Source of the DNA: Thiomicrorhabdus chilensis DSM 12352
Lineage (GTDB): Bacteria; Pseudomonadota; Gammaproteobacteria; Thiomicrospirales; Thiomicrospiraceae
Assembly: GCF_000483485.1 (NCBI RefSeq)
Contig: NZ_KI519609.1
Coordinates: 2,323,460 to 2,387,459 of the forward strand
Length of the DNA stretch: 64,000 nt
Reading direction: 5' to 3'
Positions within the stretch are counted from its first letter, which is position 1. Each line of letters starts with the position of its first letter. Of the stretch, positions 1-62,305 are shown piece by piece. The translations under genes and the position numbers were made by a program. The notes under the pieces are model-generated. The model did no database searches. It was not told the origin of the DNA and saw only the letters and a list, made by a program, of their open reading frames with translations.

Positions 1-839
1 GCGAAGCCGGCAGCGGCAAAAAGCATTTTGCCAAGGCGGTGCATAAAACCAGCGATCGAAAAGAGGCAGGCCTGTTGGTTTTTTATGCATCGGATTTCAA
101 TGATTTAGCTCAAAAAGCCTGGGAGGAGAACAGCACCGAACTTCTGACTCAGCTTCGCCAGATTGATGGCGGCACGCTGGTGATTACCGATGCCGACCTG
201 CTCAGCCCACAAAGCCAGGTGATTCTGGCGGGCATCATGCTTGACCACCGCTATCAAAACGCCCACCAGCAAGAGGCCATGCAGCTTGATATCCGCGTCA
301 TCGCCCTTACCAAAACCGGACTGGAAAACGTGCATCATAAAGGCGAATTTCGCGACGATCTTTACCAGCGTTTTCAGGTCATGCCCATTCACATTCCAGC
401 ACTCAGACAGCATACCGAGGACATTCCCGAATTGATTGGCCATTTCATCAATCAATTTGTAACTCATGATGGCCTGACTTACCGCGATTTCACGGTCTCC
501 GCGCAAAACATCATGCGCCAGTACAGTTGGCCGGGAAACCTACGTGAATTGCAGAACCTGATTCAAAAACTGCTAATCCTCGGAAACGGCGATATTGATG
601 ACGCCGAAGTGAAAGCCGCCCTGACACAATCGGAAGCGGCCGAACTCAGTGCACTGGAAGTGGACACCGGCATCAACCTCAAGCAGGCAAAAGACCAATT
701 TGAAAAAGCCTATTTAAGTCAGCTTCTGAGGGAAACCGGCGGCAATGTCTCGGAAACGGCAAAACGTTCGGGAATTGACCGTACCAACCTTTACCGCAAA
801 CTGAAAACCCTGGGGATAGACCCAAAAAACCCGGTTTAA
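1..839 (+). CDS. ntrX: NtrX-like AAA+ response regulator, 5' end cut by window
   Basis: The reading frame is already open at the window edge, so the receiver domain lies outside. Visible order: Walker A (GEAGSGKK, codons from base 3), a short linker, a Walker B-like strand (GGTLVITDAD), the arginine-finger region (FRDDLYQRF), the sensor II region (SWPGNLREL) and a C-terminal Fis-type helix-turn-helix (GGNVSETAKRSGIDRTNLYR). Two features are odd. The interval between Walker A and Walker B is only about 48 codons and holds no GAFTGA loop, which contacts sigma-54. The usual DE of Walker B reads TD. Position directly before trkA-trkH matches the ntrYX-trkA order known in other proteobacteria. Family membership is clear; the name NtrX rests on context. 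Confidence 0.75.
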   Translation, partial: EAGSGKKHFAKAVHKTSDRKEAGLLVFYASDFNDLAQKAWEENSTELLTQLRQIDGGTLVITDADLLSPQSQVILAGIMLDHRYQNAHQQEAMQLDIRVIALTKTGLENVHHKGEFRDDLYQRFQVMPIHIPALRQHTEDIPELIGHFINQFVTHDGLTYRDFTVSAQNIMRQYSWPGNLRELQNLIQKLLILGNGDIDDAEVKAALTQSEAAELSALEVDTGINLKQAKDQFEKAYLSQLLRETGGNVSETAKRSGIDRTNLYRKLKTLGIDPKNPV

Positions 840-911
840 CCATATTTATTAAGTTGTTTTCAGCGTAGAATACGGTTTGAATATGGCATTACTTAAAGAA
901 CCTTACACACT

Positions 912-2312: not shown

Positions 2313-2359
2313 CCCAATGAACCATCAAGCCGATAAAACAAAGCGATACTAGAAACTCC

Positions 2360-3811
2360 ATGCATTCAAAAATCATTACCAAAGTTCTCGGTCTGTTGTT
2401 GATGCTTTACAGCGTAAGCCTAGTGCCGCCGTTACTGGTCTCTTTAGTTTATCGGGACGGCGCTACCTTTGCATTCAGCAGTGTATTGATCGGTGTCTTG
2501 CTGCTAGGATTAGTGCTGTGGTACCCCATTCGCAACCACAAACAGGACTTGAAAATCCGTGATGGTTTTTTGGTGGTGGTGATGTTCTGGAGTGTACTCG
2601 GCCTGGTGGGTGCCTTGCCTCTCTATATCGAAAAAGAAGTGCCCTTAAGCCTCACCGATGCCATTTTTGAATCCTTTTCAGGCCTGACTACAACCGGTGC
2701 CACGGTCATGAGCGGACTGGACAACATGCCACACGCGATTCTGTGGTACCGCCAACAACTGCAGTGGATGGGCGGCATGGGGATCATCGTATTGGCCGTC
2801 GCCATCTTGCCGATGCTCGGTATCGGGGGCATGCAGCTCTACCGCGCGGAAACTCCGGGGCCGATGAAAGATTCTAAAATCGCACCGCGCATTTCGGAAA
2901 CCGCCAAAACCCTCTGGTATCTTTACCTCGGGCTCACAGTCTCCTGCGCGGTCGGCTACTGGTTTGCCGGAATGAACTGGTTTGACGCTTTTGGCCACAG
3001 TTTCTCAACGGTGGCGATTGGCGGCTTTTCAACCCATGACGCCAGCATTGGGCACTTCAACAGCACCGCAGTTGAAACCGTAGCCATTATTTTCATGTTT
3101 TTGTCCGGCATCAACTTCGCTTTGCACTTCACGGCCTTTCATCGACTTAATGTCGCGCCCTATCGTTTTGACCCTGAATTCCGCGCCTACGCCACCCTGC
3201 TGTTTTTGGTGACCGCCATTGTCACCAGCTACCTCTATTTCCATGAAGTGTATCCAACCTGGGAAGAAGCCTTCCGTTATGGGGTCTTCCAAACGGTCTC
3301 CATCGCCACCACCACCGGCTTCGCCAACGCCGACTTTGCCGCTTGGCCAGTGTTTCTGCCTATCCTGCTGATTATGATGAGTTTTATCGGCGGCAGCGCC
3401 GGGTCTACCGCCGGGGGCATGAAAATGATCCGGTTTGTGTTGCTGTTCAAACAGGGGTCGCGCGAAATCCGCAGCCTAATTCATCCCAACGCCATCATGC
3501 CGGTTAAACTGCAAGGCAAGCCCATTCCCGAGAAGGTCATGACCGCCGTTTGGGGTTTCTTCTCGGTTTATGTCTTCACCTTCGCTATCCTGCTGCTGAT
3601 TATCATGGCTCTGGGAGTCGACCAGGTCACAGCATTCTCCGCCATCGCGGCGATGATGAACAATCTGGGGCCCGGCCTGGGAGACGTCGCCAGCAACTAT
3701 GAAACCATGAGCGATCCGGTCAAGTGGGTGCTCACCTTGGCGATGCTGCTGGGACGTTTGGAGATTTTCACTCTGCTGGTTCTGTTCACCGCCGCCTTTT
3801 GGCGCAAATAG
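2360..3811 (+). CDS. trkH: Trk potassium uptake channel TrkH
   Basis: Inner-membrane potassium-translocating subunit of the Trk system, 483 residues, the normal length. It is very hydrophobic, with the four pore-loop/TM repeats expected of TrkH/KtrB. Selectivity-filter-type segments are visible at SFSGLTTTGATVMSG, HSFSTVAIGGFSTHD, VSIATTTGFANADF and AAMMNNLGPGLG. A CAGGCCTG motif copy lies inside the gene at 2679-2686, beside the first filter. Partner TrkA is encoded directly upstream. Confidence 0.96.
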   Translation: MHSKIITKVLGLLLMLYSVSLVPPLLVSLVYRDGATFAFSSVLIGVLLLGLVLWYPIRNHKQDLKIRDGFLVVVMFWSVLGLVGALPLYIEKEVPLSLTDAIFESFSGLTTTGATVMSGLDNMPHAILWYRQQLQWMGGMGIIVLAVAILPMLGIGGMQLYRAETPGPMKDSKIAPRISETAKTLWYLYLGLTVSCAVGYWFAGMNWFDAFGHSFSTVAIGGFSTHDASIGHFNSTAVETVAIIFMFLSGINFALHFTAFHRLNVAPYRFDPEFRAYATLLFLVTAIVTSYLYFHEVYPTWEEAFRYGVFQTVSIATTTGFANADFAAWPVFLPILLIMMSFIGGSAGSTAGGMKMIRFVLLFKQGSREIRSLIHPNAIMPVKLQGKPIPEKVMTAVWGFFSVYVFTFAILLLIIMALGVDQVTAFSAIAAMMNNLGPGLGDVASNYETMSDPVKWVLTLAMLLGRLEIFTLLVLFTAAFWRK

Positions 3812-3828: not shown

Positions 3829-4419
3829 ATGAGTAATAAGGCCGCCCAGAAATGGGATGAGAAATACGCCTCCGCCAGTTTGAAGACCCCGGCCAATCCA
3901 TGTTTTGTGCTCAAGCAGCACAGCCGACTGTTACCCTTTAACGGACGCGCCTTGGAAGTGGCCTGCGGACTGGGTGGAAACGCGCGCTTTCTGGCTTTAT
4001 GCGGCCTCAAGACCGAAGCCTGGGACATCTCCGATACCGCCTTGACCCTGCTCAACAACTGGGCCAGCCTGAATCACCTGCCGATTCAGCCGCTGATAAC
4101 CGATCTGGAGCAGATGCTGCTGCCTTATCAACAGTTTGACGTGATTGTGGTGAGCCGCTATCTGGACCGAAAACTCTTCAGCCAATTGGAAAACGCACTC
4201 AAACCGGGTGGTCTGTTGTTTTACCAAACCTTTTTAGCACCGGTGCAGGACAATGCGCCGAGCAATCCCGATTTTTACATCCAGCCCGGAGAATTCAACC
4301 AGGCCTGCCCAAACCTGCAAACGCTGGTTTATGGCGAAGGCTGGCTGGCGAATGAAAACAGTGTGTCGTCCGCTGAAAAACAGCGTTACGCCTGGTATGT
4401 CGGGCGCAAAAGCCAATAG
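3829..4419 (+). CDS. class I SAM-dependent methyltransferase
   Basis: A 196-residue methyltransferase fold. Motif I is ALEVACGLGGNARFLA near residues 40-55, followed by an acidic position (EAWDIS) and the motif IV region DVIVVSRYLD. The frame runs open further upstream into trkH. ATG 3829 is chosen because it has a clear ribosome site (AGGAG, 3817-3821) and gives a complete domain. It resembles the TehB/YeiR-like small methyltransferases. No substrate can be read from sequence. It starts 17 bp after trkH, so translation may be coupled. Confidence 0.82.
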   Translation: MSNKAAQKWDEKYASASLKTPANPCFVLKQHSRLLPFNGRALEVACGLGGNARFLALCGLKTEAWDISDTALTLLNNWASLNHLPIQPLITDLEQMLLPYQQFDVIVVSRYLDRKLFSQLENALKPGGLLFYQTFLAPVQDNAPSNPDFYIQPGEFNQACPNLQTLVYGEGWLANENSVSSAEKQRYAWYVGRKSQ

Positions 4420-5385: not shown

Positions 5386-5431
5386 AACGGACAGGCCTGC
5401 TCAAAATCGTTTGATTTAGAACAGGAAACGC

Positions 5432-6373
5432 TCATGACTTATAGATGTCTTCCACACCGGCGGGCGGTTTACGGTAACGTTTGTAGGACCATAGATACTG
5501 TTCCGGCGCAATGCGAATACAGGCTTCCACCCCTCGGTTGAGTGCCGCTGCGGCCAAGGTCTCGTCTTCGCTGGCCACCTCGTCTTCCGCCGGCAACACA
5601 TGCAGGCGATAGCCTTGTCCTTTGGGCAGACGCTCCATGACCACAAACAGAAACGCGCAGTCCGATTTTTGAATCAATTTCGACACCAGCGTCATGGTGC
5701 GCGCCGGACGACCGAAAAACGGTGCATAAACGCCACCTTTTTTGCCCGGATCCTGATCCGGCAAAATCGCCGAAAGCTGCTGTGCCTTCAGCGCCTTGAC
5801 CAGATAACGCACACCGCGCATATCGGTCGGTGCCAACTTGGCACCGTAACGGCTGCGCGCCTCAACCATAAACGATTCCACCGAAGGAATATTGGGCGGA
5901 CGGTAAAGAAAGGTCGAGCTTTGCGTCGTCGAGGTGTACATGCCGTTGACTTCCCAAGCGCCGATATGCGGCGCCAGCAGCAATACCCCTTTATGCTGTT
6001 CACGGGCTTGGTCCAATAATTCCTGCCCTTCGACTTCCTTAATCAACGGCAGCAATTTTGATTGCGGCCAACACCACGCCGGTCCCAGTTCGGTCGTCAC
6101 CTGACCGAGATGGATGAGGCTGCGTTTGACCAGTCGGCGCTGCTCTTGCTGGGTTAATTCCGGAAAGGCGACGGCGATGTTCTTTTGCGATACCCGTTTA
6201 TTGCTGTTTGGAATCCACCATAACAGGGTACCGATAAACGTACCCAAAGCCTGATTCCAGCGCAACGGCAACCAACTGAAAAACACAATCAGACCTTTCA
6301 AAACAGCGCCCAACCAGGCCTGCTTATTTTGGTTTTTTGTGCGATTGGCTGTTTGCTTGCCCGGGTTACTCAC
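5432..6373 (-). CDS. lpxL: lipid A biosynthesis acyltransferase (LpxL/HtrB family)
   Basis: Inner-membrane acyltransferase that adds a secondary fatty acid to Kdo2-lipid IVA. It has 313 residues, with an N-terminal membrane anchor (VLKGLIVFFSWLPL) and the catalytic HX4E motif in APHIGAWEVN near residue 135. Later conserved blocks are ILPDQDPGKKGGVYAPFFG and the C-terminal WSYKRYRKPP. The paralogue LpxM cannot be strictly excluded. It is 2 bp from the end of ttcA on the same strand. Confidence 0.88.
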   Translation of the reverse strand: MSNPGKQTANRTKNQNKQAWLGAVLKGLIVFFSWLPLRWNQALGTFIGTLLWWIPNSNKRVSQKNIAVAFPELTQQEQRRLVKRSLIHLGQVTTELGPAWCWPQSKLLPLIKEVEGQELLDQAREQHKGVLLLAPHIGAWEVNGMYTSTTQSSTFLYRPPNIPSVESFMVEARSRYGAKLAPTDMRGVRYLVKALKAQQLSAILPDQDPGKKGGVYAPFFGRPARTMTLVSKLIQKSDCAFLFVVMERLPKGQGYRLHVLPAEDEVASEDETLAAAALNRGVEACIRIAPEQYLWSYKRYRKPPAGVEDIYKS

Positions 6374-7378: not shown

Positions 7379-8407
7379 ATGTCGATTCCCACTCATTCCT
7401 GGCTTCAACTTCTTACCATCCTGGTGATGACCACATTGGCCAGCCTCAGCCAAGCCAATGTTTCTGTACCGAGCGCGCAAAAGCAACAGGCCTGGTCATT
7501 TTCCGGGCCGTTAAATATCGACCCACTCAATATCAGCGGTCTGGTTGTCACCCAACAATTCACGGCCCTGGCCAGCGACGAAGGCCAGAGCATTGAACTG
7601 TTCACATTCCAACAGACTGAGCAAAAAAAATGGAAAAGCCTGGCCACCGTCCCCCTCAGCCAAAAGGACGACGAACTCGACATTGAAGCCCTGGCCTGGC
7701 AAGCGCCCTACCTGTATGCAATCGGTTCGCATGGGGTGAAACGAAAAAAACTCAAAGCCGGACTCTCACAAAAACAGAATGAAAAACGGCTTGAAACGGT
7801 GGTGCGTGAACCGGCCAGGCATCAGTTGTTTCGCATCAAGCTGGATGACCAGCTGAAGGTTATGGAAACACATTCGCTGTCATTGGATTCGATCCTGCAA
7901 CAGGAAGACATTTTGAAGCCTTTCAGCAAACTTCCCAGCAAAGAAAACGGCATTGATATTGAGGCATTGGCGATCGATGAAAAAGGCCGCTTACTGGTGG
8001 GCTTCAGAGGCCCGGTATTACGCGGCAACACCCTACCGGTGCTGCGCCTTAAACTGAACAAGCGTGAATTTGCGGTCAAAAAACACAAGCTGCTGTACCT
8101 GCACACCGACAACGGCGGCGGCCTGCGCGGCATGAGTGAAACCGAAAATGGTTTTTTGATTTTAAGCGGGCCGGTTGGCAACCAGAGCATGCCCTATCAA
8201 GTGGCTTTGTGGAGCGGTGAAAATGCCTTAAAGGGCAAAGACCAACCCTCAGGCGCAGTGAAAACCCTGTGTCATTTACCCACCTCGGCAGGCAAACCCG
8301 AAGGCATTCAATTTATCTCTCAAAGCCACAAACTAATCGAGTTTATGATTGTCCAAGACGGTCTGCCAAATGGCCAGCCTACGCTATTCAGCTGCCCCTC
8401 CCGGTAA
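7379..8407 (+). CDS. exported DUF3616-family protein
   Basis: A 342-residue protein with a clear signal peptide from ATG 7379 (hydrophobic WLQLLTILVMTTLASLSQA, cleavage likely after SQA). The in-frame GTG at 7352 would put a non-signal stretch in front of it, so it was not chosen. The body shows the beta-rich DUF3616 pattern, with two DIEALA-type repeats (DELDIEALAW and GIDIEALAID) each followed by a strand and a glycine turn. Members have no established function; a beta-propeller-like periplasmic protein is inferred. Divergent from ttcA. Confidence 0.72.
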   Translation: MSIPTHSWLQLLTILVMTTLASLSQANVSVPSAQKQQAWSFSGPLNIDPLNISGLVVTQQFTALASDEGQSIELFTFQQTEQKKWKSLATVPLSQKDDELDIEALAWQAPYLYAIGSHGVKRKKLKAGLSQKQNEKRLETVVREPARHQLFRIKLDDQLKVMETHSLSLDSILQQEDILKPFSKLPSKENGIDIEALAIDEKGRLLVGFRGPVLRGNTLPVLRLKLNKREFAVKKHKLLYLHTDNGGGLRGMSETENGFLILSGPVGNQSMPYQVALWSGENALKGKDQPSGAVKTLCHLPTSAGKPEGIQFISQSHKLIEFMIVQDGLPNGQPTLFSCPSR

Positions 8408-17945: not shown

Positions 17946-17959
17946 GAACAGGCCTGTTC
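17946..17959. repeat. perfect 14-bp palindromic copy of the CAGGCCTG motif
   Basis: GAACAGGCCTGTTC, a perfect palindrome in the 242-bp gap between yaeQ and the next gene. It is flanked by AAAAC on one side and AAAAC on the other. One of the intergenic copies of the window-wide motif. Confidence 0.8.
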
Positions 17960-41547: not shown

Positions 41548-41555
41548 CAGGCCTG
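41548..41555. repeat. CAGGCCTG motif copy abutting tatC stop
   Basis: Two bases after the tatC stop codon, 20 bp ahead of a second, palindromically extended copy. Confidence 0.75.
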
Positions 41556-41564: not shown

Positions 41565-41594
41565 GGCAAAATGGACAGGCCTGTTCATTTTGCC
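41565..41594. repeat. 30-bp extended palindrome centred on CAGGCCTG
   Basis: Arms GGCAAAATG and CATTTTGCC flank the CAGGCCTG core (41576-41583). The only mismatch (G74/T85) would be a G-U pair in RNA, so the entire 30 bp is self-complementary. It lies at the tatC 3' end, and the candidate start of the next gene falls in its right arm. Confidence 0.8.
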
Positions 41595-49558: not shown

Positions 49559-52486
49559 ATGGCACGGTCTTTACCTTCTCTGATAACGCACTATAAAAAG
49601 ACCACAGGCCTGTTCATTTTTATTGGCCTATTGATTCTGGTTCTCCCATTCGCCATCCAATTCGGCATTCAAAAAGCGTTTCTCAGCCAAGGCGCGGATG
49701 AAGTGCAGCTGGAAGATGTGGACTTCAATCCGTTTAGCGGGCAACTGGTCATCAAAAACCTGCAGGTCGTCCAGAATTCAGACCGCGTTTTGTCTGTTCA
49801 AAAAATGCTCGTCAAGATTAGATGGCGTGCCTTATGGCAGCAACACCTATTGCTCAACACCCTGAACATACAGCATGCCAAACTGCAAATCACCCAGCTT
49901 GACCCACAGCACTTGAAAGTCGCAGGAATAGAGGTACCACTCAACCCGCAACAAAGCGAAGACAAAGGGCAGGCGCCCTTTTTCATGCTGGGTATCGGCG
50001 CGCTGACGGTTGAGGATTTTTCGGTGACTCTGCTACGCCCCAACCAGAACGTTGAACGCACCACCTATACACTGAACCATTTGGCACTCGACAACCTCTA
50101 TATGTGGGATAAAAACCCGGCCCAGTTGGTTTTCAACAGCCATCTCAACGATTCACGAATCGCCAGCCATTTCAGGCTCTTTCTGTTCAGCGAACACCCC
50201 AAGGTGGTCGGCACCGTCAAAATCGACGGTTTGAACCTGGCACAACTGCCGGTTGTCGCCGAACTCTCAGAGCTCAATGCAGAAGGCCTACTTTCAACGG
50301 ATCTGACCTTTACCGCCCAACTTTTCCCGCAAGGTCTGAACTTCCAACAGCAGGGAGATATCCAACTTAAAGCGGTTGCACTTTCAACCGCCACGCAACA
50401 AGCCAGCTGGCAAGCTTTTAACTGGTCTGGAAGCATGAGTTATATTGAAGGCCACACCTATCCAGAGTTGGCACTCAACGGCACGGCAAAAATGCAGAAC
50501 TTGCAATTGGACGACTCCGCCAGCCAGATGCACTTGCAACAATCCATGAACGCGCAATGGGAGCTGATTGGGCAACTTAAACCTGAAGGCATCCAACTGG
50601 AACACAAAGGCCGCACTACACTCAATGGTTTTGTACTGGATCTCCCCAACCAGCATGCCTCTGCCGATCAGGTTCAATGGCAAGGTTCGGTCAACTTTAC
50701 TCAAGCGGACATCCCCGAAATGAGTGCATCAGGCCTAATGACCCTTCAAGCCGGGGTGCTTGATGACAGTCAGAACCAACTTCACCTCAAACAGAATGCT
50801 GAAGCGCAAGTTGATATGCAATTACAACTGCACCCTCAAGGCATTCAGCTGGCGCAAACAGGCGGTCTGAAGATTAGTGATCTCAATGCTTCCCTTCCAA
50901 AGTTTCAGATCCAACTGCAAAGCCTCAATTGGCAAGGCGACTTGGCACTCAAGCAAACCGACAGCCTCAAAATCGACAGCCAAGGCCAACTCAAGCTGAA
51001 GACCCTACAAACCCATCAAAAAACCGATACCAAGGGTCGTACCCGGCCTTTGGCGGAAATCGCGGGCTTGTCGATCGATACAATCGCCGTTCAGCAACCC
51101 GAGTCGATCAAACTCAAAACACTTAGCCTTGACGGCTTGAACATCGCCAAACAGGAAAACGGGGCCTTTGTGACGCTCAAGCAAGCGCAAGTCGATCATA
51201 TGACTCTGCATGACCTGTCCAAACTGACTTTGGGCAGCCTTAAGCTGTCTGACAGCCAAACCCAAATCACCCTCAACAAAGAGGGTAAAATCGAACAATT
51301 GACGGCTTTACTTGAAGGCTTCACCTCGCCAGACCAAGCAACCGAGCCTACCCAAAACAAAACCGACCAGCAAACCGGCCAAGCTAGCACAGAACAGACA
51401 CCCGGTTTCCAAGTCCAATGGAAAGCCATCGAAATGCGGGGGAACAACCAGATTGACTTCAGCAGTCACCAATTCGCCTCACCGATTCAAAAAACCATCA
51501 CCGTCCAGACCCTCAAAATCGGAAGTCTAAACAGCCAAAAACCCGCGGCCGACACGCCTTACGAGCTGAAACTCAAACTGGATGAATTCGCCCATTTCAA
51601 CAGTCGCGGCAGCCTTCAACCCTTTAACCCGAAACTGACCGCCCAACTTTCCAGTCAGCTAGAAGGCTTGAACTTGGTGGAGATCAGTCCGGCTTCTGCC
51701 CAGTTCACTGGATATGACATCAGCAGCGGACAGCTCTCGGCCGACATGGAAACCAAAATCACCGCCAATAAAATAGACGCCGAAAACACCCTGCGACTGC
51801 ATAAACTGAAACTCAAGGCCGCCGACACCAGCAAAAGTGCAGAGTTCGAACAGGGCTTGAGTATGCCGATCGACGCGGCTTTATCGCTGCTGAGGGACAA
51901 GCAGGACAATATCAGATTGAAACTTCCCATCCAGGGTGACCTCACCAATCCTGAGTTCGACCTGAATGACGTCATCAACACCGCTTTGAGCGGTGCCATT
52001 AAGACCGCCAGCAAAACCTATTTACTGCTGGCGCTGCAACCTTTCGGCGCGATTGCCTTGGCGGGAGACTTCTTGAGTGGTCAAATGCAAGCGGTTAAAT
52101 TGCAATCAATCGACTTTGAAGCGGGACAAACCGAACTTTCACCGACTATGCAGACCTATCTGCAAAAAATCCATGCACTGCTTCAGGAACGTAAAGGGGT
52201 GCAGATCAAGGTCTGCGGCTTGGCCAATGAAGCCGACCGCAATGCGCTGTTGAAAGCGCTTGCACAACAAAACAAACAGGAAAGCCAACAAAATGCTGAA
52301 AAAGCGGCTGCAAAAGGCGTCAAGGACCTGGTCAGCGACACACAATTGCTGGAGCTTGCGCAACAACGTGCCTCAACCATTAAACGCTACCTTCTGAACC
52401 AAGGCAGCTCAACCAGCCAGGTCATTCTTTGCCAGCCAAAGCTCAGTCAAAAGACCGATTCACCAAAAGTTGAAATGGGAATTTAA
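49559..52486 (+). CDS. large DUF748 (AsmA-like) protein with OmpA-like C-terminus
   Basis: A 975-residue protein with an N-terminal transmembrane anchor (TGLFIFIGLLILVLPFAIQF). Long periplasmic beta-rich repeats of the DUF748/AsmA kind follow (e.g. LNTLNIQHAKLQITQLDP, and several SLDGLNIAK-type strands). The C-terminal region, from about residue 865, resembles an OmpA-type segment (FEAGQTELSPTMQTYLQKI). Such proteins are thought to work in envelope lipid transport; not proven. It begins 18 bp after bioF, inside the biotin cluster. A CAGGCCTG copy with the full extension lies in the signal-anchor codons (49605-49612). Confidence 0.82.
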   Translation: MARSLPSLITHYKKTTGLFIFIGLLILVLPFAIQFGIQKAFLSQGADEVQLEDVDFNPFSGQLVIKNLQVVQNSDRVLSVQKMLVKIRWRALWQQHLLLNTLNIQHAKLQITQLDPQHLKVAGIEVPLNPQQSEDKGQAPFFMLGIGALTVEDFSVTLLRPNQNVERTTYTLNHLALDNLYMWDKNPAQLVFNSHLNDSRIASHFRLFLFSEHPKVVGTVKIDGLNLAQLPVVAELSELNAEGLLSTDLTFTAQLFPQGLNFQQQGDIQLKAVALSTATQQASWQAFNWSGSMSYIEGHTYPELALNGTAKMQNLQLDDSASQMHLQQSMNAQWELIGQLKPEGIQLEHKGRTTLNGFVLDLPNQHASADQVQWQGSVNFTQADIPEMSASGLMTLQAGVLDDSQNQLHLKQNAEAQVDMQLQLHPQGIQLAQTGGLKISDLNASLPKFQIQLQSLNWQGDLALKQTDSLKIDSQGQLKLKTLQTHQKTDTKGRTRPLAEIAGLSIDTIAVQQPESIKLKTLSLDGLNIAKQENGAFVTLKQAQVDHMTLHDLSKLTLGSLKLSDSQTQITLNKEGKIEQLTALLEGFTSPDQATEPTQNKTDQQTGQASTEQTPGFQVQWKAIEMRGNNQIDFSSHQFASPIQKTITVQTLKIGSLNSQKPAADTPYELKLKLDEFAHFNSRGSLQPFNPKLTAQLSSQLEGLNLVEISPASAQFTGYDISSGQLSADMETKITANKIDAENTLRLHKLKLKAADTSKSAEFEQGLSMPIDAALSLLRDKQDNIRLKLPIQGDLTNPEFDLNDVINTALSGAIKTASKTYLLLALQPFGAIALAGDFLSGQMQAVKLQSIDFEAGQTELSPTMQTYLQKIHALLQERKGVQIKVCGLANEADRNALLKALAQQNKQESQQNAEKAAAKGVKDLVSDTQLLELAQQRASTIKRYLLNQGSSTSQVILCQPKLSQKTDSPKVEMGI

Positions 52487-52533: not shown

Positions 52534-52637
52534 ACCCATCATTGAACCAGCAGGCCTGTCCATTTTCAAAGACTCTCTTTAAAAGAAAGGCAACTGACAG
52601 AGCGCCTTGAAAACAGAAAAACTTAAATCGCAGGTAT

Positions 52638-53202: not shown

Positions 53203-53985
53203 ATGCGCACACTTCACTATGAACAGTTCGGTGACGGCCCCAATCTGACCTTTATTCACGGCTGGGGTGCACAGAACAGTGTTTGGCATGACTGGATAAA
53301 AAACCATTTCGCAGAGCATTTTCGGGTAACCTTGATCGAGTTGCCGGGATGCGGCAACAGCCACGAAATCGGTAAAACCGAAAACCTTCAACAGGCCTGG
53401 GTAGAAGCGCTAATGAAGGTGTTACCGGAACCGACCCACCTGGTCGGCTGGTCGCTGGGTGGGCTGCTGTCGCAATCAATCACTATCCAGCACCCCGAAA
53501 AAGTAGTTAGCCTGACCTGCCTGGCCTCGACGCCACGTTTCATACAAACCGATGATTGGCACTGGGCGATGAATCCCAAACTCATGAATGACTTCATTCA
53601 AGCGCTGGGCAAAGACACTCTGGCCACCCTGCAGCACTTTTGGAAATTGCAGATTCAAGGCTCGGATGGCGCTCGCCAACTGATCAAACACTTTCTCAAA
53701 CAGATGCAAACCCGAAAAATTCCTAAGCTCAGCAGCCTATCGCAAGGCTTGCAACTGCTTAAGGAGATGGACAACCGTCAGGCTTTACAAACCTCCTCCA
53801 CGCCAGTGCTCTGGCTATTGGGCGAAAATGATCCCCTTATTCCAAAGGAATTCGTCGCGGATTTCAGTACAATACAGCCTCTTGCTCAGGTCAGTTTGAT
53901 TGCCGGGGCGGCGCACATGCCGTTTTATTCCCACCCCGAAGAGACCGCTCAGGCCTTGCAGACGTTTTTAAACTCAGTCAAATAA
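53203..53985 (+). CDS. bioH: pimeloyl-ACP methyl ester carboxylesterase BioH
   Basis: An alpha/beta hydrolase of 260 residues. Nucleophile elbow VGWSLGGLLSQ, acid in LLGENDPLIP and histidine in AGAAHMPFYSHP are present. The N-terminal HGWGAQNSVW fits BioH. It cleaves the methyl ester made by BioC. It is 11 bp before bioC. Confidence 0.92.
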   Translation: MRTLHYEQFGDGPNLTFIHGWGAQNSVWHDWIKNHFAEHFRVTLIELPGCGNSHEIGKTENLQQAWVEALMKVLPEPTHLVGWSLGGLLSQSITIQHPEKVVSLTCLASTPRFIQTDDWHWAMNPKLMNDFIQALGKDTLATLQHFWKLQIQGSDGARQLIKHFLKQMQTRKIPKLSSLSQGLQLLKEMDNRQALQTSSTPVLWLLGENDPLIPKEFVADFSTIQPLAQVSLIAGAAHMPFYSHPEETAQALQTFLNSVK

Positions 53986-53996: not shown

Positions 53997-54956
53997 ATGT
54001 CGGATCACGCCCCCTTATCGTCGCCCCCGGTCAACCGGGCCCACATCAAACAGCACTTCAGCCATGCCGCACCGAGCTATGACGAAGCGGCGGTGCTGCA
54101 GAAGGCGGTCGCCGAACATGTGGACGAAAGACTGGCACTGACGACCTTGTCCCCGCAGATGATTCTCGACATCGGAGCGGGAACCGGCCTGCTCACCGAA
54201 AAAGTTATCCATCGTTATCCACAGGCCAGAACTTTCGCGATCGACCTGTCTGCAGACATGCTCAAACGTGCGCAACAACGCCTGCAAGGCCCCAGATTCA
54301 AATGGCTGCCGCAGAGTCTCTTCGCTAAAGACGGAGCGAATCTTGTGAACGCCGACGCTTACGCCTTGCCGATTGCAGATCACAGTGTGGATCTGATTGT
54401 CAGTAACCTTATGTTGCAATGGTGTGATGATCTGGATCGGGTGTTTCAGGAGTTCCGCCGAGTCTTACGCCCCGAAGGCCTGTTGATGTTCACCACCTTC
54501 GGCCCGGACACTCTCAAGGAACTCAAACAGGCCTGGGCGGTCGCTGATGCCGACAACCCGCATGTCAACCATTTTGTGGACATGCACGACATTGGCGATG
54601 CGCTGATCCGCAATGGTTTCGGACAACCGGTCATGGACGTGGAAACTTTTACGCTGACCTATGACAAACCGATTGGCGTGCTCAAGGATCTCAAGGCCAT
54701 CGGTGCCACCAACGCCGGTCTGAACCGTAAACGCGGACTGATGGGCAAGCAGACTTTTCAAACCATGCTCGAAGCCTATGAAAGCCAGCGTGACCCGCAA
54801 CGCCACGATGGAAAACTTCCCGCTACTTACGAAGTGGTTCACGGCCATGCCTGGGCGGCGCAGGAAGTCATAAAAGGCCCCAACCGGGATCGGGCAGGCC
54901 TGGTGGAAATCAGTCTGGACGAATTCTCCAAACAGACCAAAAACCGTCAAACCTAA
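53997..54956 (+). CDS. bioC: malonyl-ACP O-methyltransferase BioC
   Basis: SAM methyltransferase that starts pimeloyl-ACP synthesis. It has 319 residues, with motif I ILDIGAGTGLLTEKV and the DLIVSNLMLQWCDD segment typical of BioC. It carries CAGGCCTG copies at 54528-54535 and 54895-54902, and another lies 7 bp after its stop (54963-54970). Confidence 0.94.
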   Translation: MSDHAPLSSPPVNRAHIKQHFSHAAPSYDEAAVLQKAVAEHVDERLALTTLSPQMILDIGAGTGLLTEKVIHRYPQARTFAIDLSADMLKRAQQRLQGPRFKWLPQSLFAKDGANLVNADAYALPIADHSVDLIVSNLMLQWCDDLDRVFQEFRRVLRPEGLLMFTTFGPDTLKELKQAWAVADADNPHVNHFVDMHDIGDALIRNGFGQPVMDVETFTLTYDKPIGVLKDLKAIGATNAGLNRKRGLMGKQTFQTMLEAYESQRDPQRHDGKLPATYEVVHGHAWAAQEVIKGPNRDRAGLVEISLDEFSKQTKNRQT

Positions 54957-55022
54957 AACCAACAGGCCTGGTGCTTCCAAGCCTTAACTCAACGGGCCCT
55001 TAGCTCAACTCCGAACAGTCGC

Positions 55023-57269
55023 TCAAAACATCTCTTGTGGATCAACATCGATGCTCCAGCGAACTTTACGGCTCAGCGGACTTTTATAGATATGAGGTTC
55101 CACCTGCCCCAAAACCGCATGCAAGTCAGATCGTTGTGCCGACTGCAACAACAACTGATAACGGTAACGTCCTTGCCGACGCTCCATCGGAGCGGAAACC
55201 GGCCCCCATACATCCAGATCACGGACTTCGGCAGAAGAGCCGCCCGATTTGGTTTGTGCTAATTGGGCTTGAGCCAGCAAGGCGTGTTTCAATTCACTTA
55301 AAAAACGCAAACCATCCTGTGGTTGCATGGCTTCGGCCCGAATCATAATTTGATAACGGAACGGCGGCAATCGTGCTTGCTGACGCTCCAGCAACGCTTT
55401 CTCGGCGAAAGCGCCGTAGCCCTCTTTAATAAGGGTGATCAGAAGCGGATGATCGGGATGATGCGTCTGGATCAGAACTTCTCCGGCTTTTTCGGCGCGC
55501 CCGGCGCGTCCGGCCACCTGAAGAACGAGTTGAGCCATGCGTTCCGACGCGCGAAAATCGACTCCGAACAACCCTTGGTCAATATCCAACAGCGCCACCA
55601 GCGTCACATTGGGGAAATGATGCCCTTTGGCCAGCATTTGCGTGCCGATCAGAATATCGGCTTCACCGCTGCGAGCCTGCTCGGTCAATTCCGCCATCTT
55701 GCCTTTTTGTCGTGTGGTGTCGCGGTCGATGCGAACCACCTTTTGCTCGGGAAACCACTCCTGAATGGTTTCAGTCAAACGCTCCGTCCCCTGCCCGACC
55801 TTGACAAACTCCTCACTCTGACAGCTTGGACACGCCTTGGGCGCGGCACATTGGTAACCGCAATGGTGACAGCGCAAATGTCCGTGGACCGTTCCGGATT
55901 GGTGAAACGTCATATTGGCGTCACAACTTGGACATTGCGCCTGCCAGCCACATTGATGACACATCAATACCGGTGCAAACCCACGGCGATTCAAAAACAA
56001 CAACACCTGACCCTGTTTTTGAAGATGTTGCTGCATAGCGGTTCGCAGTGGGCGCGATACGCCTTCCTGAATTTTTTCGCCGCGCACATCCAGCAGTTTG
56101 ATGGATGGCAACTGGGCATTGGCAGCACGTTGATGCAGTTGCAGATGGTGATAACGTCCGATTTCAACATTATGCAGGCTTTCTAAAGAGGGCGTGGCCG
56201 AGCCCAGCACCACCGGGACTTTGCTATCGAATGCCCGACGGATCAACAGGTCACGTGCCGAATAGCGAAAGCCTTCCTGTTGCTTGAAAGAGAGGTCGTG
56301 CTCTTCGTCAATAATGCAGATTCCCAGATCGGCAAAAGGCGCAAAAATCGCCGAACGTGTGCCCAGCAACACCTTGACTTGGCCGGTACGCACCAACTGC
56401 CAGGCACACAGTCGTTCGGCATCGTTCAAACCGGAGTGCAATGCCGCAACCGGCTGTTGCAGATAAGCCGTGAAACGCGACACCATCTGCGGCGTCAGGC
56501 CGATTTCCGGCACCAGTACCAAAGCCTGCTTGCCACGTTTTAGCACGGCATCGATCATGCCCAGATAGACCTCGGTTTTACCGCTACCAGTGACCCCTTC
56601 CAGCAAAAATGCCTGGAACGACTGCACCGGCAAAGCCGCGACCGCATCCACCGCCTGTTGCTGATCTGCATTGAGTTCATGCTCAGGCTTGGCAGCATAA
56701 GCCATTTCCGGCAGACAGAGGCCTCGGCTCTCTTTGATCCAGCCTAAATCCATGAACTTTTTCAGGCTCGGGCGCCAAGATTCCAGCACGCAAGACAATT
56801 GACTGGCGGATTGGGCCATGCCCACCGACTTGAGATGGGTCAACAGCGCCAATTGATGTTTGGCGTTTTTGGGAATCGCATCGGCTTGAATTTCCAAGCC
56901 TTTTTCACTCAACTCCCAAACGGGCAGGCCTGTTATATTGACGGCCTCACCGGCACGCAGTTTTTTAGGCAAGGCGGCCTGCATCACTTCTCCAATCGGC
57001 TCATGATAGTAATGGGCCGACCAACTCAAAAACTCCAGATGTGCTTGAGTAAACAAGGCCTCTTCATCAATGACCGCCAGCACGCTTTTAAGTTTGTCGG
57101 ACTGGTAATCGCTCTCTTCGGCCAAGCCCATCACCAGACCCACCTGCTGCTTATTACGAAACGGCACCCAAACCCGACCGCCCACAACCGGCAAGGCTCC
57201 TTCCGACAGATCAAAACGGTAATCCAATGGGAACAGAAACGGTCCCGGCACAGCAACTTTAACAATCAT
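55023..57269 (-). CDS. priA: primosomal helicase PriA
   Basis: Replication-restart helicase, 748 residues. Walker A GVTGSGKTEVYLG, the DEEH box (CIIDEEHDLSFKQ) and the zinc-binding cysteines (CHQCGWQAQCPSC, CHHCG) are present. The C-terminal helicase motif VALLDIDQGLFGVDF is clear. A CAGGCCTG copy lies at 56925-56932. Confidence 0.97.
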   Translation of the reverse strand: MIVKVAVPGPFLFPLDYRFDLSEGALPVVGGRVWVPFRNKQQVGLVMGLAEESDYQSDKLKSVLAVIDEEALFTQAHLEFLSWSAHYYHEPIGEVMQAALPKKLRAGEAVNITGLPVWELSEKGLEIQADAIPKNAKHQLALLTHLKSVGMAQSASQLSCVLESWRPSLKKFMDLGWIKESRGLCLPEMAYAAKPEHELNADQQQAVDAVAALPVQSFQAFLLEGVTGSGKTEVYLGMIDAVLKRGKQALVLVPEIGLTPQMVSRFTAYLQQPVAALHSGLNDAERLCAWQLVRTGQVKVLLGTRSAIFAPFADLGICIIDEEHDLSFKQQEGFRYSARDLLIRRAFDSKVPVVLGSATPSLESLHNVEIGRYHHLQLHQRAANAQLPSIKLLDVRGEKIQEGVSRPLRTAMQQHLQKQGQVLLFLNRRGFAPVLMCHQCGWQAQCPSCDANMTFHQSGTVHGHLRCHHCGYQCAAPKACPSCQSEEFVKVGQGTERLTETIQEWFPEQKVVRIDRDTTRQKGKMAELTEQARSGEADILIGTQMLAKGHHFPNVTLVALLDIDQGLFGVDFRASERMAQLVLQVAGRAGRAEKAGEVLIQTHHPDHPLLITLIKEGYGAFAEKALLERQQARLPPFRYQIMIRAEAMQPQDGLRFLSELKHALLAQAQLAQTKSGGSSAEVRDLDVWGPVSAPMERRQGRYRYQLLLQSAQRSDLHAVLGQVEPHIYKSPLSRKVRWSIDVDPQEMF

Positions 57270-57964: not shown

Positions 57965-57989
57965 GCAGGCCTGTTCATTTTGGGCCTGC
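57965..57989 (+). repeat. CAGGCCTG motif copy folded into a stem-loop
   Basis: GCAGGCC (57965-57971) and GGCCTGC (57983-57989) pair around an 11-nt loop, followed by eight A residues. It carries the CATTTT extension in the loop and lies about 20 bp after the lipoprotein stop. Confidence 0.75.
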
Positions 57990-60032: not shown

Positions 60033-60163
60033 ATAGCGATAATGTGAGCTTTTTCCATAAATTTATTCAAATAAGGCCTAATTTAGCCGTTAATTAATTG
60101 GCAAGGCCTATTTTCTTGGTTAGAATCGAAGTAACTAATGATTGCTAATACGGCTCACACTGA

Positions 60164-62305
60164 ATGAATGCAGTAAGAATCCCTTCACAACTTGAAAACT
60201 CGGTGGCACGGTTACGTGAAGAGCGAGAGAACAAGTTGGAAATCATCTGCGCATTCCATGAAGCCGTCATTGTATTCAAACCAGATCTGACGCCGCAAAT
60301 CATCAACCAACAAGCCAAACTCTTGCTGGGCGAACACATCGACATTGACCAGCCCATTGAAAGCTTACCGCTTTACAAAAACAAAAAAGCCAGCCTGAGG
60401 TTTGACCTGCATGACTGCCTTCAGCAACTCATCGAAGAGGTTGAGCACACCCCAAAAGACAGTCAGCCCAAAGAGATTTCGGTTTGGCTCAAAGACGTGG
60501 AAACCCTCAAAACCACCCCGCTGCTGCTGTCCGGAAAGGCCCTGAAAACGGCTGAAGGTGGGCTAAAAAACCTGCTGCTGGTCATCTACGATCGTACCAT
60601 TTACGCTCAGGCTGACGAACAAAAGCGCCTTATGGAAGCCGCTTTCAACAGTTACGACGGCCAGTTCATCACCAATGAAAAGGGATACATCACCCACCCC
60701 AATGACGCCTTCTGCGCTCTGACCGGACTGCCAACCTCCACTCTGAAAAAAATGACCTTAACCGGCTGGCTGGAGCAGCAGGTCACCCTTAAAACCAACA
60801 CCAATGAAGTGCTGAAGACCCTACTGACCTCACGTTACTGGAGTGGAGAGGTGGAACTGCACCCCATGCCCAACACCACGTTTTATGCAGTATTAAGCAT
60901 ATCCATGCTGGCTGATGAACAGTTCAATATCGAACATTATGTGGTGACCATCCAGAACATTACCGACATCCACGAAGCGCAAATGGCCATCGAACAAATG
61001 GCCTATTACGATGACCTGACAGGCCTGGCCAATCGCCGTCTGGCTTACGAGCATCTGGATGTGGCATTAAAACACCATAAGCGCCACAATTCCTTTGCCT
61101 CGCTGTTTTTCATCAACCTGGACCGTTTCAAAAGCATTAATGACGCCTTTGGGCGCAACACGGGCGATGCGCTGCTCAAGCAGGTGGCGAGCAACCTCAG
61201 AAATCTGTTGCGTGAAGAAGATACCATTGCGCGCATCGGCGGTGACGAATTCCTGATCCTGACCCAGGACAAGGCCTTTTCCACCACCCAGGCGACCCAA
61301 AACGCCTACCATTTGGCCAACAAAATCGCCAAAGCACTGAACAAGAACTACCACATCAACGAAACCACCTTGCACAGCACCATCTGCATCGGCATCACCG
61401 TATTCCCATTCAAAGACGGGGACAGTGCGGAAGACTTGATGGACTATGCCGATTTGGCGATGTCGGCCGCCAAAAAACGCACCAACCAGAAAATTTACTT
61501 TTATGAACCGTCATTGTCCGAAGTGGTGATTGAACGTCGCGAACTCGAACACGCCTTGACCACAGCGGATCTGGACCAACAGTTTGAACTGCATTATCAA
61601 GCGCAAATCGGTCGCGATGACCAGGTTCATGGCGCGGAAGCCTTGCTGCGCTGGGATCACCCCGAACTCGGTTCGGTGACGCCGAATAAATTCATTCCTA
61701 TCGCTGAAGAAGGCCGTCAGATATTAAGGCTGGGTGACTGGGTCATGGCCACCGCCTTTATGCAGGCTAAAAAGTGGAGTCAGATTGACCCGCACTTTAA
61801 TCTGTCCATCAACATCAGCCCCATACAATTTCACGAGGCCGATTTTGTCGAACAGACCATGCAAGTGATGCAGACGACACAAGTCAACTCGCGCAACATC
61901 ACTTTGGAACTCACAGAAGGGGTTTTGATTTCCGATACCCAGTCGGCCCTCAAGAAGATCGGGCGTTTGAGCCAACTGGGCTTTAAAATCTCAATCGATG
62001 ATTTCGGAACCGGGTATTCATCTTTGAGTTATTTGCAAAAATTGCCGATACACGAACTGAAAATTGACAAAAGCTTCATCCATCGGGTGCCCGAAAGTGA
62101 AGATGATATGGCGATAGTCGAATCCATCATCAGCCTAGCCAGAACCAAAAAACTCGTCATAGTGGCTGAAGGCGTTGAAAACCATCAGCAAGTGGCCTTT
62201 TTAAGAGCTCAACCGGACGACATCATCATCCAAGGCTTCCTCTATGGCAAACCCTGCCGTAACAAAGAGTTTGAACAAACTTTCCTGAATGTTTCATCCG
62301 ATTAA
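60164..62305 (+). CDS. PAS-GGDEF-EAL c-di-GMP enzyme
   Basis: A 713-residue protein. N-terminal domain (about 1-150) unknown, then a PAS-like domain (160-270). GGDEF domain with intact GGDEF at residues 359-363, and EAL domain with EALLR at about 492-496. Cyclase and phosphodiesterase motifs are both canonical, so it may be bifunctional. Followed 110 bp later by a paralogue. Confidence 0.92.
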   Translation: MNAVRIPSQLENSVARLREERENKLEIICAFHEAVIVFKPDLTPQIINQQAKLLLGEHIDIDQPIESLPLYKNKKASLRFDLHDCLQQLIEEVEHTPKDSQPKEISVWLKDVETLKTTPLLLSGKALKTAEGGLKNLLLVIYDRTIYAQADEQKRLMEAAFNSYDGQFITNEKGYITHPNDAFCALTGLPTSTLKKMTLTGWLEQQVTLKTNTNEVLKTLLTSRYWSGEVELHPMPNTTFYAVLSISMLADEQFNIEHYVVTIQNITDIHEAQMAIEQMAYYDDLTGLANRRLAYEHLDVALKHHKRHNSFASLFFINLDRFKSINDAFGRNTGDALLKQVASNLRNLLREEDTIARIGGDEFLILTQDKAFSTTQATQNAYHLANKIAKALNKNYHINETTLHSTICIGITVFPFKDGDSAEDLMDYADLAMSAAKKRTNQKIYFYEPSLSEVVIERRELEHALTTADLDQQFELHYQAQIGRDDQVHGAEALLRWDHPELGSVTPNKFIPIAEEGRQILRLGDWVMATAFMQAKKWSQIDPHFNLSINISPIQFHEADFVEQTMQVMQTTQVNSRNITLELTEGVLISDTQSALKKIGRLSQLGFKISIDDFGTGYSSLSYLQKLPIHELKIDKSFIHRVPESEDDMAIVESIISLARTKKLVIVAEGVENHQQVAFLRAQPDDIIIQGFLYGKPCRNKEFEQTFLNVSSD

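Follow-up and report, generated by a model that had tools for sequence, protein, structure and literature searches.

A palindromic octamer with AT-rich arms as a candidate DNA uptake signal in the Thiomicrorhabdus family

Introduction

The available parts of a 2025 paper (PMC12616744) name the Neisseriaceae and the Pasteurellaceae as the only families known to select DNA of their own by means of an enriched short motif. The USS of Pasteurellaceae (Hin AAAGTGCGGTCAATTTT and Apl AACAAGCGGTCAAATTT) are present in many copies, with a core of 8-9 bases and AT-rich segments about one helical turn apart; their consensus is strong with few single mismatches, they prefer non-coding sequence and they exist as two subclade dialects (PMC1626085 and PMC12616744, both available in part). 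The DUS of Neisseriaceae also present dialects, inverted pairs at terminators and a permissive intergenic placement (PMC3630211, available in part), and the available part of PMC1626085 describes them as lacking conserved flanking arms. The receptor of DUS, ComP, is known. To our knowledge, none of the known DUS is a palindrome.

KOPS and Chi are short polar words enriched across a chromosome. In cyanobacteria, HIP1 is a dense GC-rich palindromic octamer that other palindromes (alternate HIPs) replace in some relatives (PMC4390886, available in part).

The motif described here, CAGGCCTG, resembles each of these systems in some of the respects just listed but differs from all of them. USS are non-palindromic with AT segments on one side, whereas this motif has a palindromic core flanked by arms on either side; its core sequence differs, and it belongs to another family and is known from sequence alone. 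It has the flanking arms that DUS lack, and its receptor is only postulated. Unlike HIP1, it presents arms and an asymmetric dialect, and two main methylase families are absent from several motif-rich genomes. Finally, it is enriched across the chromosome as KOPS and Chi are, but a palindrome has no polarity. The Thiomicrorhabdus group in which we found it consists of sulfur oxidisers.

Results and Discussion

Abundance and consensus of the octamer

The window, i.e. the whole stretch of 64,000 nucleotides of Thiomicrorhabdus chilensis DSM 12352 that we analysed, contains 28 copies of CAGGCCTG (Table 1), against a mean of 0.92 in 100 dinucleotide shuffles (maximum 4). A first-pass annotation made from the letters alone had placed every one of them correctly, and had also read correctly the seven sites followed by NNCATTTT (7487, 10668, 21356, 41576, 49605, 52551 and 57966) and the four with AAAA-rich sequence before the core (5392, 17949, 26722 and 41576). 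The abundance extends well beyond the window: the whole genome holds 900 copies, against 26 of the reversed word used as control, and a sample of 464 kb holds 184 where 12-13 were expected. Hundreds to thousands of chromosome-wide copies far above chance are typical of uptake sequences.

Perfect cores were in large excess (184 vs 11.7 expected) and singly mismatched cores were not (215 vs 225.6 expected); both observations also held in the related genomes G005 and G018. Some forms did exceed expectation, namely AAGGCCTG in this genome (45 vs 25.6) and, as an exception, all single mismatches pooled in G009 (33 vs 19.9), and we counted these against an uptake function. A strong consensus of this kind is common to USS and DUS and unlike that of regulator sites (Redfield et al. 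2006; PMC1626085, available in part).

Flanking arms

In this genome, either flank of the core bears the pattern N-Y-N-R-W-T-T-T, independently of the other flank. Calling an arm when T occupied at least 3 of 4 arm places, we found arms on 45% of half-sites against 7% for the background. Both sides were armed at 40 of the 184 sites, one side at 87 and neither at 57, which is the expectation for independent sides at a 45% rate (left-right correlation of 0.11). Coding sites were armed as well (31%), and the arm rate of singly mismatched cores was mostly near background (0-25%, small counts). The same architecture, a palindromic core with independent arms on either side, was found in G005, G009, G018 and G024, and the form of G021 is asymmetric.

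The extension had initially been described as asymmetric and used as an argument for uptake. Because the tail occurs independently on either side, this argument fails in the present genome. The motif lacks the asymmetry of known uptake sequences, which we consider a property of the known cases and not a logical requirement; a palindrome with AT-rich arms on either side would be read in both directions.

Placement along the chromosome

Site density is 4.9-fold higher in non-coding sequence (1.204 per kb) than in coding sequence (0.246 per kb), the latter holding 96 of the 184 sites. Convergent gaps are the densest, with 34 sites in 7.1 kb, and the enrichment near gene 3' ends proposed earlier is real. 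Divergent gaps hold 5 sites in 14.5 kb (0.35 per kb), still above the coding density, an observation that we counted against an uptake function. Regulator or nucleoid-protein sites typically present a relaxed consensus with many near-matches and, for regulators, a location near promoters; the scarcity of sites in divergent relative to convergent gaps and the lack of an overall near-match excess do not fit this pattern.

Close pairs were in excess, with 11 of 163 intervals of at most 60 bases against 3.8 expected. The non-coding preference and these pairs, together with the hairpins of the G021 dialect (see below), recall the inverted pairs that uptake sequences form at terminators. In the first 266 kb of the chromosome, the sites showed no significant tendency to even spacing compared with random placement (P = 0.17), which we also counted against an uptake function. 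The site-free stretch at about 29.7-41.5 kb (ccoNOQP), singled out by the first-pass annotation, is unremarkable: at 0.37 sites per kb, we estimate that the window should contain about 0.3 such gaps. The motif is almost absent from a sampled conjugative plasmid (1 site in 40 kb).

Table 1. Copies of the octamer and the comF-like gene in the window. G numbers denote genomes compared; "intact" refers to the core at the orthologous position.
Feature	Position	Strand	Context and state in relatives
CAGGCCTG	67..74		in CDS, T-arms both sides; intact in G005
CAGGCCTG	2679..2686		in trkH-like CDS, without T-arms; not intact in G009, G005, G018
CAGGCCTG	4300..4307		in CDS; intact in G009, G005, G018
CAGGCCTG	5392..5399		convergent gap, left arm AAAA; intact in G005, GAGGCCTG in G009
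CAGGCCTG	6315..6322		in CDS, right arm TTTT; intact in G005, G018
CAGGCCTG then GTCATTTT	7487..7494		in CDS, both arms; CAGACCTG in G018
CAGGCCTG then GTCATTTT	10668..10675		tRNA-uracil methyltransferase CDS; intact in G009, G005, G018; new dialect CAGGCCGG in G021
CAGGCCTG	14121..14128		in CDS; intact in G009, G005, G018; ATCGACTG in G021
CAGGCCTG	17949..17956		intergenic, left arm AAAA
CAGGCCTG	19959..19966		in CDS, left arm AAAA; CAGGATTG in G005, CGGGATTG in G018
CAGGCCTG then CTCATTTT	21356..21363		upstream of bipA; intact in G005, G018; TAAGCCTG in G009; CAGGCCGA in G021
CAGGCCTG	24561..24568		in CDS, right arm TTTT; intact in G009, G005; AAGGCATG in G018; new dialect CCGGCCTG in G021
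CAGGCCTG	26722..26729		convergent gap, both arms
CAGGCCTG	29649..29656		in CDS; intact in 0 of 4 aligned relatives
CAGGCCTG	41548..41555		in gap; first of close pair, 28 bases apart
CAGGCCTG	41576..41583		second of pair with 41548; AAAATGGA before, TTCATTTT after
CAGGCCTG	42322..42329		in CDS, left arm AAAA; intact in G005, G018
CAGGCCTG	46504..46511		within comF-like gene; CAAGCCTC in G018, CAAGCCTG in G021
CAGGCCTG	48959..48966		aminotransferase CDS, left arm AAAA; intact in G009, G018; CAAACTTG in G005; CGGGCCTG in G021
CAGGCCTG then TTCATTTT	49605..49612		near start of ORF 49559-52486; in gap if later start
CAGGCCTG then TCCATTTT	52551..52558		downstream of ORF 49559-52486
CAGGCCTG	53392..53399		in CDS; intact in G005, G018; G021 also reads CAGGCCTG
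CAGGCCTG	54528..54535		in CDS; intact in G009, G005, G018; CAGGCGTG in G021
CAGGCCTG	54895..54902		in CDS; intact in G018; not in G009, G005, G021
CAGGCCTG	54963..54970		convergent gap, left arm AAAA; not intact in G005, G018, G021
CAGGCCTG	56925..56932		in priA CDS; not intact in G018, G021
CAGGCCTG then TTCATTTT	57966..57973		gap after ORF 57551-57946; intact in G018; new dialect CCGGCCTG in G021
CAGGCCTG	61020..61027		GGDEF-EAL CDS; CCGGTCTC in G018; new dialect CCGGCCTG in G021
comF-like gene (competence-associated protein)	46482..47174	-	TIGR00201 E 3e-31, GntX model E 1e-39, both below curated cut-off

Spread and maintenance in the family

We surveyed 62 genomes of the order, all in one family (the Thiomicrorhabdus family). 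The counts of CAGGCCTG were bimodal: 32 genomes hold at least 236 copies (236-1173), 30 hold 0-74 and none holds 75-235. Three of the 30 low-count genomes possess another known dialect. In 21 genomes from other families of the class, counts were 0-222 (controls 0-91). Relatedness was taken from a tree of one gene, BipA, and the presence of the motif is patchy within genera.

At equal divergence, orthologous sites were intact in 39 of 65 comparisons with motif-using relatives and in 0 of 36 with motif-free relatives (Fisher test, 7e-11, the pairs not being independent), which shows that the sites are kept by a trans-acting system. Given the same 0 of 36, codon pairs, one of the alternatives named in the first-pass annotation, cannot explain the motif. 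In motif-free genomes, no replacement motif of comparable strength was found in samples of 50-140 kb from G003, G013, G014, G020, G025, G026, G031, G028, G011 and G032, nor in 79 kb pooled from G029, G012, G023 and G017; the search covered these genomes and 22 kb of G034.

Dialects

An asymmetric dialect, CAGGCCGG, is present in 1111 copies in G021 and 633 in its sister G004. In G021 the asymmetry extends over about 20 bases, and G004 shares the word CAGGCCGG by count. The word shows no strand bias in G021 (533 vs 578 copies, leading and lagging strands not being separated), unlike the strand polarity of KOPS and Chi. The new word stands in G021 in 13 of the 47 comparisons of aligned sites, but in only 1 of 83 controls; the 47 represent four views of overlapping G021 positions and hence are not independent. 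Five of the new-word positions of G021 carry the new word in old-dialect relatives as well, so that part of the in-place match may be due to shared words and not to conversion. These comparisons clearly point to a switch of dialect in G021 and its sister G004, partly in place. Of six close pairs in G021, four point toward each other, and three of these four are clean hairpins.

The genome G024 carries a further dialect, TTTACCGGCCGGTAAA, with 29 cores in 64.8 kb. The centre GGCC is common to CAGGCCTG, CAGGCCGG and CCGGCCGG (the G024 form being taken from sampled stretches only). As in the known uptake systems, the dialects are clade-specific and share an inner core.

Nature of the recognising system

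Taken together, the genome comparisons indicate that CAGGCCTG with its flanking T-runs is probably a self-DNA tag of the uptake-sequence type (probability of roughly 0.7). The uptake-type reading of the first-pass annotation thus stands as the best supported, owing to the all-or-none consensus, the density in non-coding sequence and at gene 3' ends, the close pairs, the spread in the family with losses, the dialects, the maintenance of sites only where the system is present and the scarcity on the plasmid; its appeal to an asymmetric tail does not carry over, the asymmetric form being that of the relative G021. Somewhat more cautiously, we favor a third, independently evolved system of self-recognition in transformation, proper to the Thiomicrorhabdus family. 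Its tag would be the first palindromic uptake signal, with AT-rich arms on either side. Losses of this tag would have occurred repeatedly, and one lineage would have altered a single half-site and so converted the tag, partly in place, to an asymmetric dialect.

Such a system would rely on a surface DNA-binding receptor, most likely on the type IV pilus, recognizing the palindromic core and an AT-rich arm one helical turn to either side, so that competent cells would favor DNA from their own kind. Uptake and recombination would be more frequent for tagged than for untagged alleles; the tag would thereby accumulate, transformation would restore it, and forms without the tag or with a single mutation in it would be replaced. 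Lineages losing the system would lose their tags through mutation, and a change in receptor specificity would lead a lineage to rewrite its tags, partly in place, as may have happened in G021 (CAGGCCTG to AAAACTCAACAGGCCGGGTA). We infer that the trans-acting system is DNA uptake and that biased recombination drives the accumulation of the tag. If this is true, the family would be the third one with such a tag, here palindromic, and would comprise related species having, lacking or rewriting it. It would allow asking how tags start, spread and change, it would offer natural genome pairs for finding the receptor, and genetic exchange in this group would be species-biased. Should the uptake reading be mistaken, it would be equally surprising for a family to keep, lose and rewrite a binding site spread over the whole chromosome.

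A much less likely explanation is that the sites bind a dimeric nucleoid or chromosome-organizing protein, whose subunits would read the two CAGG halves and the AT-rich arms one turn away, some 900 sites per chromosome helping to fold, segregate or police it. A dimeric DNA-binding protein would be expected to select a palindrome with two-sided arms, which we counted against the uptake reading, and the independence of the arms fits a homodimer. The sites are also sparse in divergent gaps and numerous where a bound protein would do the least harm, they are chromosomal and scarce on the sampled plasmid, and they depend on a trans-acting system. However, the word is missing or at background level in 30 of the 62 family genomes (three of them with another dialect), which would be odd for a core chromosomal function; a homodimer would not favor the asymmetric G021 form, and the overall excess of singly mismatched cores seen with regulator-type sites is lacking.

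The motif could also represent a self/non-self mark for a defense unrelated to transformation, e.g. a DNA-modification or nuclease system sparing tagged DNA, but this appears improbable. Backbone sulfur modification at GGCC is one candidate, and the GGCC centre common to the three dialects, the patchy presence within genera typical of defense and the near absence from the sampled plasmid are consistent with a mark of this kind. Defense recognition, however, normally neither enriches nor moves sites, and it does not predict the preference for convergent gaps.

We consider it very unlikely that a methylase acting on AGGCCT or GGCC, together with methylation-directed mismatch repair, ratchets the sites up as proposed in cyanobacteria, although the density of this GC-rich palindromic octamer, about 0.4 per kb, and the occurrence of a different palindrome in a relative recall HIP1 and the alternate HIPs (PMC4390886, available in part). 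The two methylase families searched, PF00145 (C5-cytosine) and PF01555 (N4/N6), were detected in 16 and 12 of 37 genomes, respectively, and neither follows the motif. Both are absent from this genome and from six other motif-rich genomes (G010, which is 86% complete, G015, G018, G022, G027 and G033), where an HIP-type palindrome would come with its core methylase, and this contradicts the methylase alternative raised in the first-pass annotation. Moreover, no enrichment of AGGCCT is seen outside the octamer (228 vs 242), and the long arms and the asymmetric dialect would be left unexplained. There is similarly little to recommend an RNA-level element, i.e. a family of bidirectional intrinsic terminators made of the palindrome with AAAA/TTTT arms and spread by selection for termination: the sites are strongly enriched between converging genes, the arms could pair into a stem that has GGCC as its loop and is followed by a U-run, the flanks of non-coding sites show, at several places, somewhat more complementarity than expected and inverted pairs give longer hairpins, but the coding sites (96 of 184) are armed as well (31% vs 7% for the background), their flanks are not consistently complementary beyond expectation, and termination neither requires a fixed octamer nor would lead to a switch to an asymmetric word.

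Competence genes and receptor candidates

Among the components of competence machinery that DNA uptake would require, the genome shows a ComEC match in an open frame of 862 residues, ComF and 11 prepilin signals. The comF-like gene lies in the window, as the first-pass annotation had stated, and itself carries a site (Table 1); its product has no Pfam match at E 1e-3. ComEC did not separate the groups of genomes, which we counted against the uptake reading: it was present in 17 of the 18 genomes rich in the motif, in 2 of the 3 with a dialect and in 14 of the 16 motif-free ones (33 of 37 in total), and the match in the dialect genome G021 lies in a shorter frame of 594 residues. In a narrow search of open-licence PMC papers, we found no account of natural transformation for any member of the family, which likewise counts against the uptake reading, and neither "competence" nor "natural transformation" occurs in a Hydrogenovibrio genome paper (PMC6501319). 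Among the matches listed in a search of the open-licence PMC literature for the octamer, no paper was on bacterial genome signals by its title, and no description of the motif was found by title or shown abstract.

Two pilin candidates were examined and neither follows the motif, so that no motif-specific receptor was found among them; this too was counted against the uptake reading. Of the 37 genomes, 10 match the lone pilin a173 (G000:C1:598154, G000 being the present genome) at 56% identity or more, namely the motif-free G003 and nine that carry the motif or the G021/G004 dialect; G013 has a 44% match. The pilin was rejected as receptor since it lacks a close match in seven motif-rich genomes that are at least 99% complete; the matches in motif-rich G009, G018, G019, G027, G033, G035 and G036 are weaker (E 2e-20 or worse). 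The minor-pilin cluster adjoining the window was rejected because it is found in motif-free genomes too and not at the pilin locus of motif-rich G015. Queries from this cluster match in 35 of 37 genomes. Across the 20 genomes with pilin loci compared, it is present in motif-free G003, G013, G025, G023, G029 and G017, and absent at the pilin locus of motif-free G014 and G031 as well as of G015. Stops inside the matches had suggested broken minor-pilin genes in motif-free G013, G025 and G029, but these genes were intact on inspection. Stops inside minor-pilin matches were also observed in G031 and in contig 3 of G005.

Abundance and distribution of the octamer

The first-pass annotation described a palindromic, GGCC-centred octamer, CAGGCCTG, iterated about 28 times in the window. 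Our count gave 28 copies, against a mean of 0.92 and a maximum of 4 in dinucleotide-shuffled sequences. The enrichment extends to the whole genome (G000; 2.44 Mb in two contigs), with 900 copies relative to 26 for a control word, the octamer read backwards. The closest named relatives of this genome carry Thiomicrorhabdus labels, with one Hydrogenovibrio, and we infer that the window comes from a bacterium of the Thiomicrorhabdus group.

Among 62 genomes of the single family that represents the order here, CAGGCCTG was found 236-1173 times in 32 (motif-rich) and 0-74 times in 30 (motif-free). Motif-rich genomes accounted for 15/32 of genus label g1, 7/11 of g6, 9/9 of g5 and 1/1 of g3, and for none of g2 (0/4), g28 (0/4; 35-67 copies) and g4 (0/1). 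In 21 genomes from other families of the class, 0-222 copies were counted (control words: 0-91). When genomes are labeled by whether they hold fewer than 200 copies, a class that takes in the dialect genomes, the best BipA tree (37 genomes) requires six changes of label, and well-supported branches force at least two of these. This single-gene tree suggests that the motif is an old family trait that was lost or changed several times. The signal is real, strong and family-wide, and it is undescribed as far as limited literature searching shows.

Several genomes present a dialect of the motif. In G021 and its sister G004, CAGGCCTG is scarce (74 and 62 copies) and CAGGCCGG occurs 1111 and 633 times, both strands combined; the highest count in the other 35 genomes was 241 (G036, control 127). 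The G021 profile, AAAACTCAACAGGCCGGGTA, joins the old half-motif on the left to a new right half. A 155-kb sample of G021 yielded 65 dialect cores, of which 22 agree with the profile at 18 or more of its 20 letters. Among six close pairs, four face each other, and three of these four make clean hairpins. G024 presents the dialect TTTACCGGCCGGTAAA (29 cores in 64.8 kb sampled), and ACCAGGCCTGGT is favored around the same core in G009, G019, G035 and G036. No replacement motif of comparable strength was seen in the samples taken from other motif-free genomes.

Structure and placement of the sites

We analyzed 184 perfect copies with full flanks in 464 kb of G000 (20 evenly spaced 20-kb stretches and the window). 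With both orientations pooled, the bases beyond the core conform to the consensus not-A, Y, N, R, W, T, T, T; past the eighth base, information returns to background. Because the core is a palindrome, two-way averaging alone is blind to whether the tail is one- or two-sided, and the sides were therefore compared site by site. T-runs were present on both sides of 40 sites (37.9 expected under independence), on one side of 87 and on neither side of 57, with a left-right correlation of 0.11; the arms were also near independence in G005, G018, G009 and G024. The asymmetric extension originally proposed is thus not borne out in G000, where each side carries its T-run independently. The T-run is centered about 10.5 bases from the palindrome center, i.e., one helical turn. 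At least three of the four arm places are T in 45% of half-sites (background, 7%), and arms occur in coding sites (31%) and, more strongly, in non-coding ones (61%).

Expected numbers were computed with perfect sites masked. Perfect cores were in large excess (184 vs. 11.7 expected) and singly mismatched cores were not (215 vs. 225.6); the latter reach 0.463 per kb, relative to 0.385 in motif-free relatives of similar base composition, and their arms are mostly near background (0-25%, small counts). One singly mismatched word, AAGGCCTG, exceeded expectation (45 vs. 25.6). Pooled single mismatches were in excess in G009 (33 vs. 19.9), with no such excess in G005 and G018.

Based on our own simple gene caller (386 genes, 84% coding), 96 sites lie wholly within genes and 88 do not (respectively, 0.246 and 1.204 per kb). 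Of the non-coding sites, 34 lie in convergent gaps (7.1 kb in all), 24 and 21 in the two kinds of tandem gap (20.9 and 28.4 kb, respectively) and 5 in divergent gaps (14.5 kb); the remaining four lack a neighboring gene on one side. Within genes, 53 sites are read as xGL and 40 as QA followed by W or C, and only 3 use the third frame (xRP). Intervals of at most 60 bases are over-represented (11/163 vs. 3.8 expected), and several close pairs could form hairpins. Evenness of spacing across the first 266 kb was not significant.

Maintenance of the motif and dialect change in place

G000 sites aligned to 12 motif-bearing relatives were intact in 39/65 cases (control octamers of equal GC-content: 10.1%), and those aligned to 16 relatives without the motif or a known dialect in 0/36 (control: 6.8%), at equal overall identity (71-77%) in both groups (P = 7e-11; Fisher test, on site-genome pairs that are not independent). 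These results indicate that the octamer is kept by neither protein constraint nor codon usage. Its upkeep depends on something that is present in the motif-bearing group and acts in trans.

At aligned G000 sites, G021 retains the old word in 1/14 cases, and in 4/14 the corresponding position reads the new dialect. Across four reference genomes, the new dialect occupied old-word positions in 13/47 comparisons, relative to 1/83 for control octamers with a like change. Conversely, of the 16 distinct new-dialect sites of G021 that were aligned, seven correspond to the old word in one or more relatives. At five positions, two of which belong to these seven, the new word is also present in a relative.

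A candidate uptake sequence

We estimate at roughly 0.7 the probability that CAGGCCTG works as an uptake sequence; the motif most likely represents a third system of this kind, and the first to be based on a palindrome. This reading is suggested by an enriched self word, a sharp consensus, an AT arm one turn away, the density in non-coding and convergent regions, clade dialects, decay without the system and scarcity on a plasmid. Biased uptake followed by recombination would prevent singly mutated sites from accumulating and could spread a dialect in place. However, the known USS of Pasteurellaceae and DUS of Neisseriaceae are unlike this palindromic core, which counts against the uptake reading.

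The plasmid evidence comes from contig 2 (96.8 kb) of the motif-rich G019, which carries the conjugation genes TraI_2, TraU, TrbI, TraK and TraG/D. The 40 kb read (42-43% GC) contain one CAGGCCTG, relative to about 18 expected from 1106 copies in about 2.5 Mb. On the same contig, two genes for DUF285-repeat proteins are flanked by genes for T2SSF-, secretin- and T2SSE-type proteins.

Binding sites of a nucleoid protein would account for the symmetry of the site, but this reading is doubtful given the patchy distribution, the asymmetric dialect and the lack of near-matches. Polar chromosome motifs are unlikely, since the asymmetric dialect is equally frequent on both strands, and a role as a defense mark appears improbable. 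Terminators would fit the placement in gaps but not the sites within coding sequences, and a methylation-driven palindrome of the HIP type conflicts with the asymmetric dialect and with the lack of both PF00145 and PF01555 in G000, G010, G015, G018, G022, G027 and G033; we give very little credence to either.

Regarding uptake machinery, G000 encodes a ComEC match (862-residue frame) and 11 prepilin signals, and the ComF gene previously noted in the window was recovered. Also weighing against uptake, ComEC is present in 14/16 motif-free genomes as well as in 17/18 motif-rich ones. The G021 match lies in a 594-aa open frame (about 830-957 aa in most relatives), and G031 (9 contigs, 99% complete) presents neither ComEC match nor motif. 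Neither receptor candidate tracks the motif across genomes, a further point against uptake: the lone pilin lacks a close match in seven motif-rich genomes, and the minor-pilin cluster adjoining the window is present in motif-free genomes and missing at the pilin locus of the motif-rich G015. We also observed two clusters, related to each other, that encode large prepilin-like proteins (257-477 aa); most of these have no Pfam match past the N-terminal methylation signal, and several have a common CPDxDxDGxEN-like motif.

Locations of features in the window and in the compared genomes (C1, contig 1; L, sampled stretch)
Feature	Location
ComF gene	window 46482-47174
Lone pilin	G000:C1:598154
ComEC match of G021	G021:C1:88273-89076
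Prepilin-like clusters	L226:3477-8089; L225:12616-15835
DUF285-repeat proteins of G019	L303:1917-9726
AGGCTTTAGCCT repeats of G033	G033:C1:2279001-2294000 (L177)

Other repeats in the relatives

Members of a low-GC motif-free clade (G029, G012, G023 and G017, L199-L202; G028, L194-L198) contain abundant G/C runs of at least 8 nt, often TTTTCTCCCCCC-like. GGGGGGGG occurs 42 times in 79 kb of the first four (1.05 expected) and 17 times in 100 kb of G028, raising the question of whether these runs are phase-variable tracts or another genome-wide element. In 15 kb of G033, AGGCTTTAGCCT occurs nine times and, among other words, AGCCTGCGCCCC six times, apparently as a local repeat. The 12-mer TTCCGTTGCTTT occurs eight times in 140 kb sampled from G025 (L207-L209 / L038-L041), with shifted words seven times, apparently as a local tandem repeat. 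Finally, TTTCACGTGAAA-type words that resemble parS lie near the beginning of contig 1 in both G003 and G020 (L022-L025, L034-L037).
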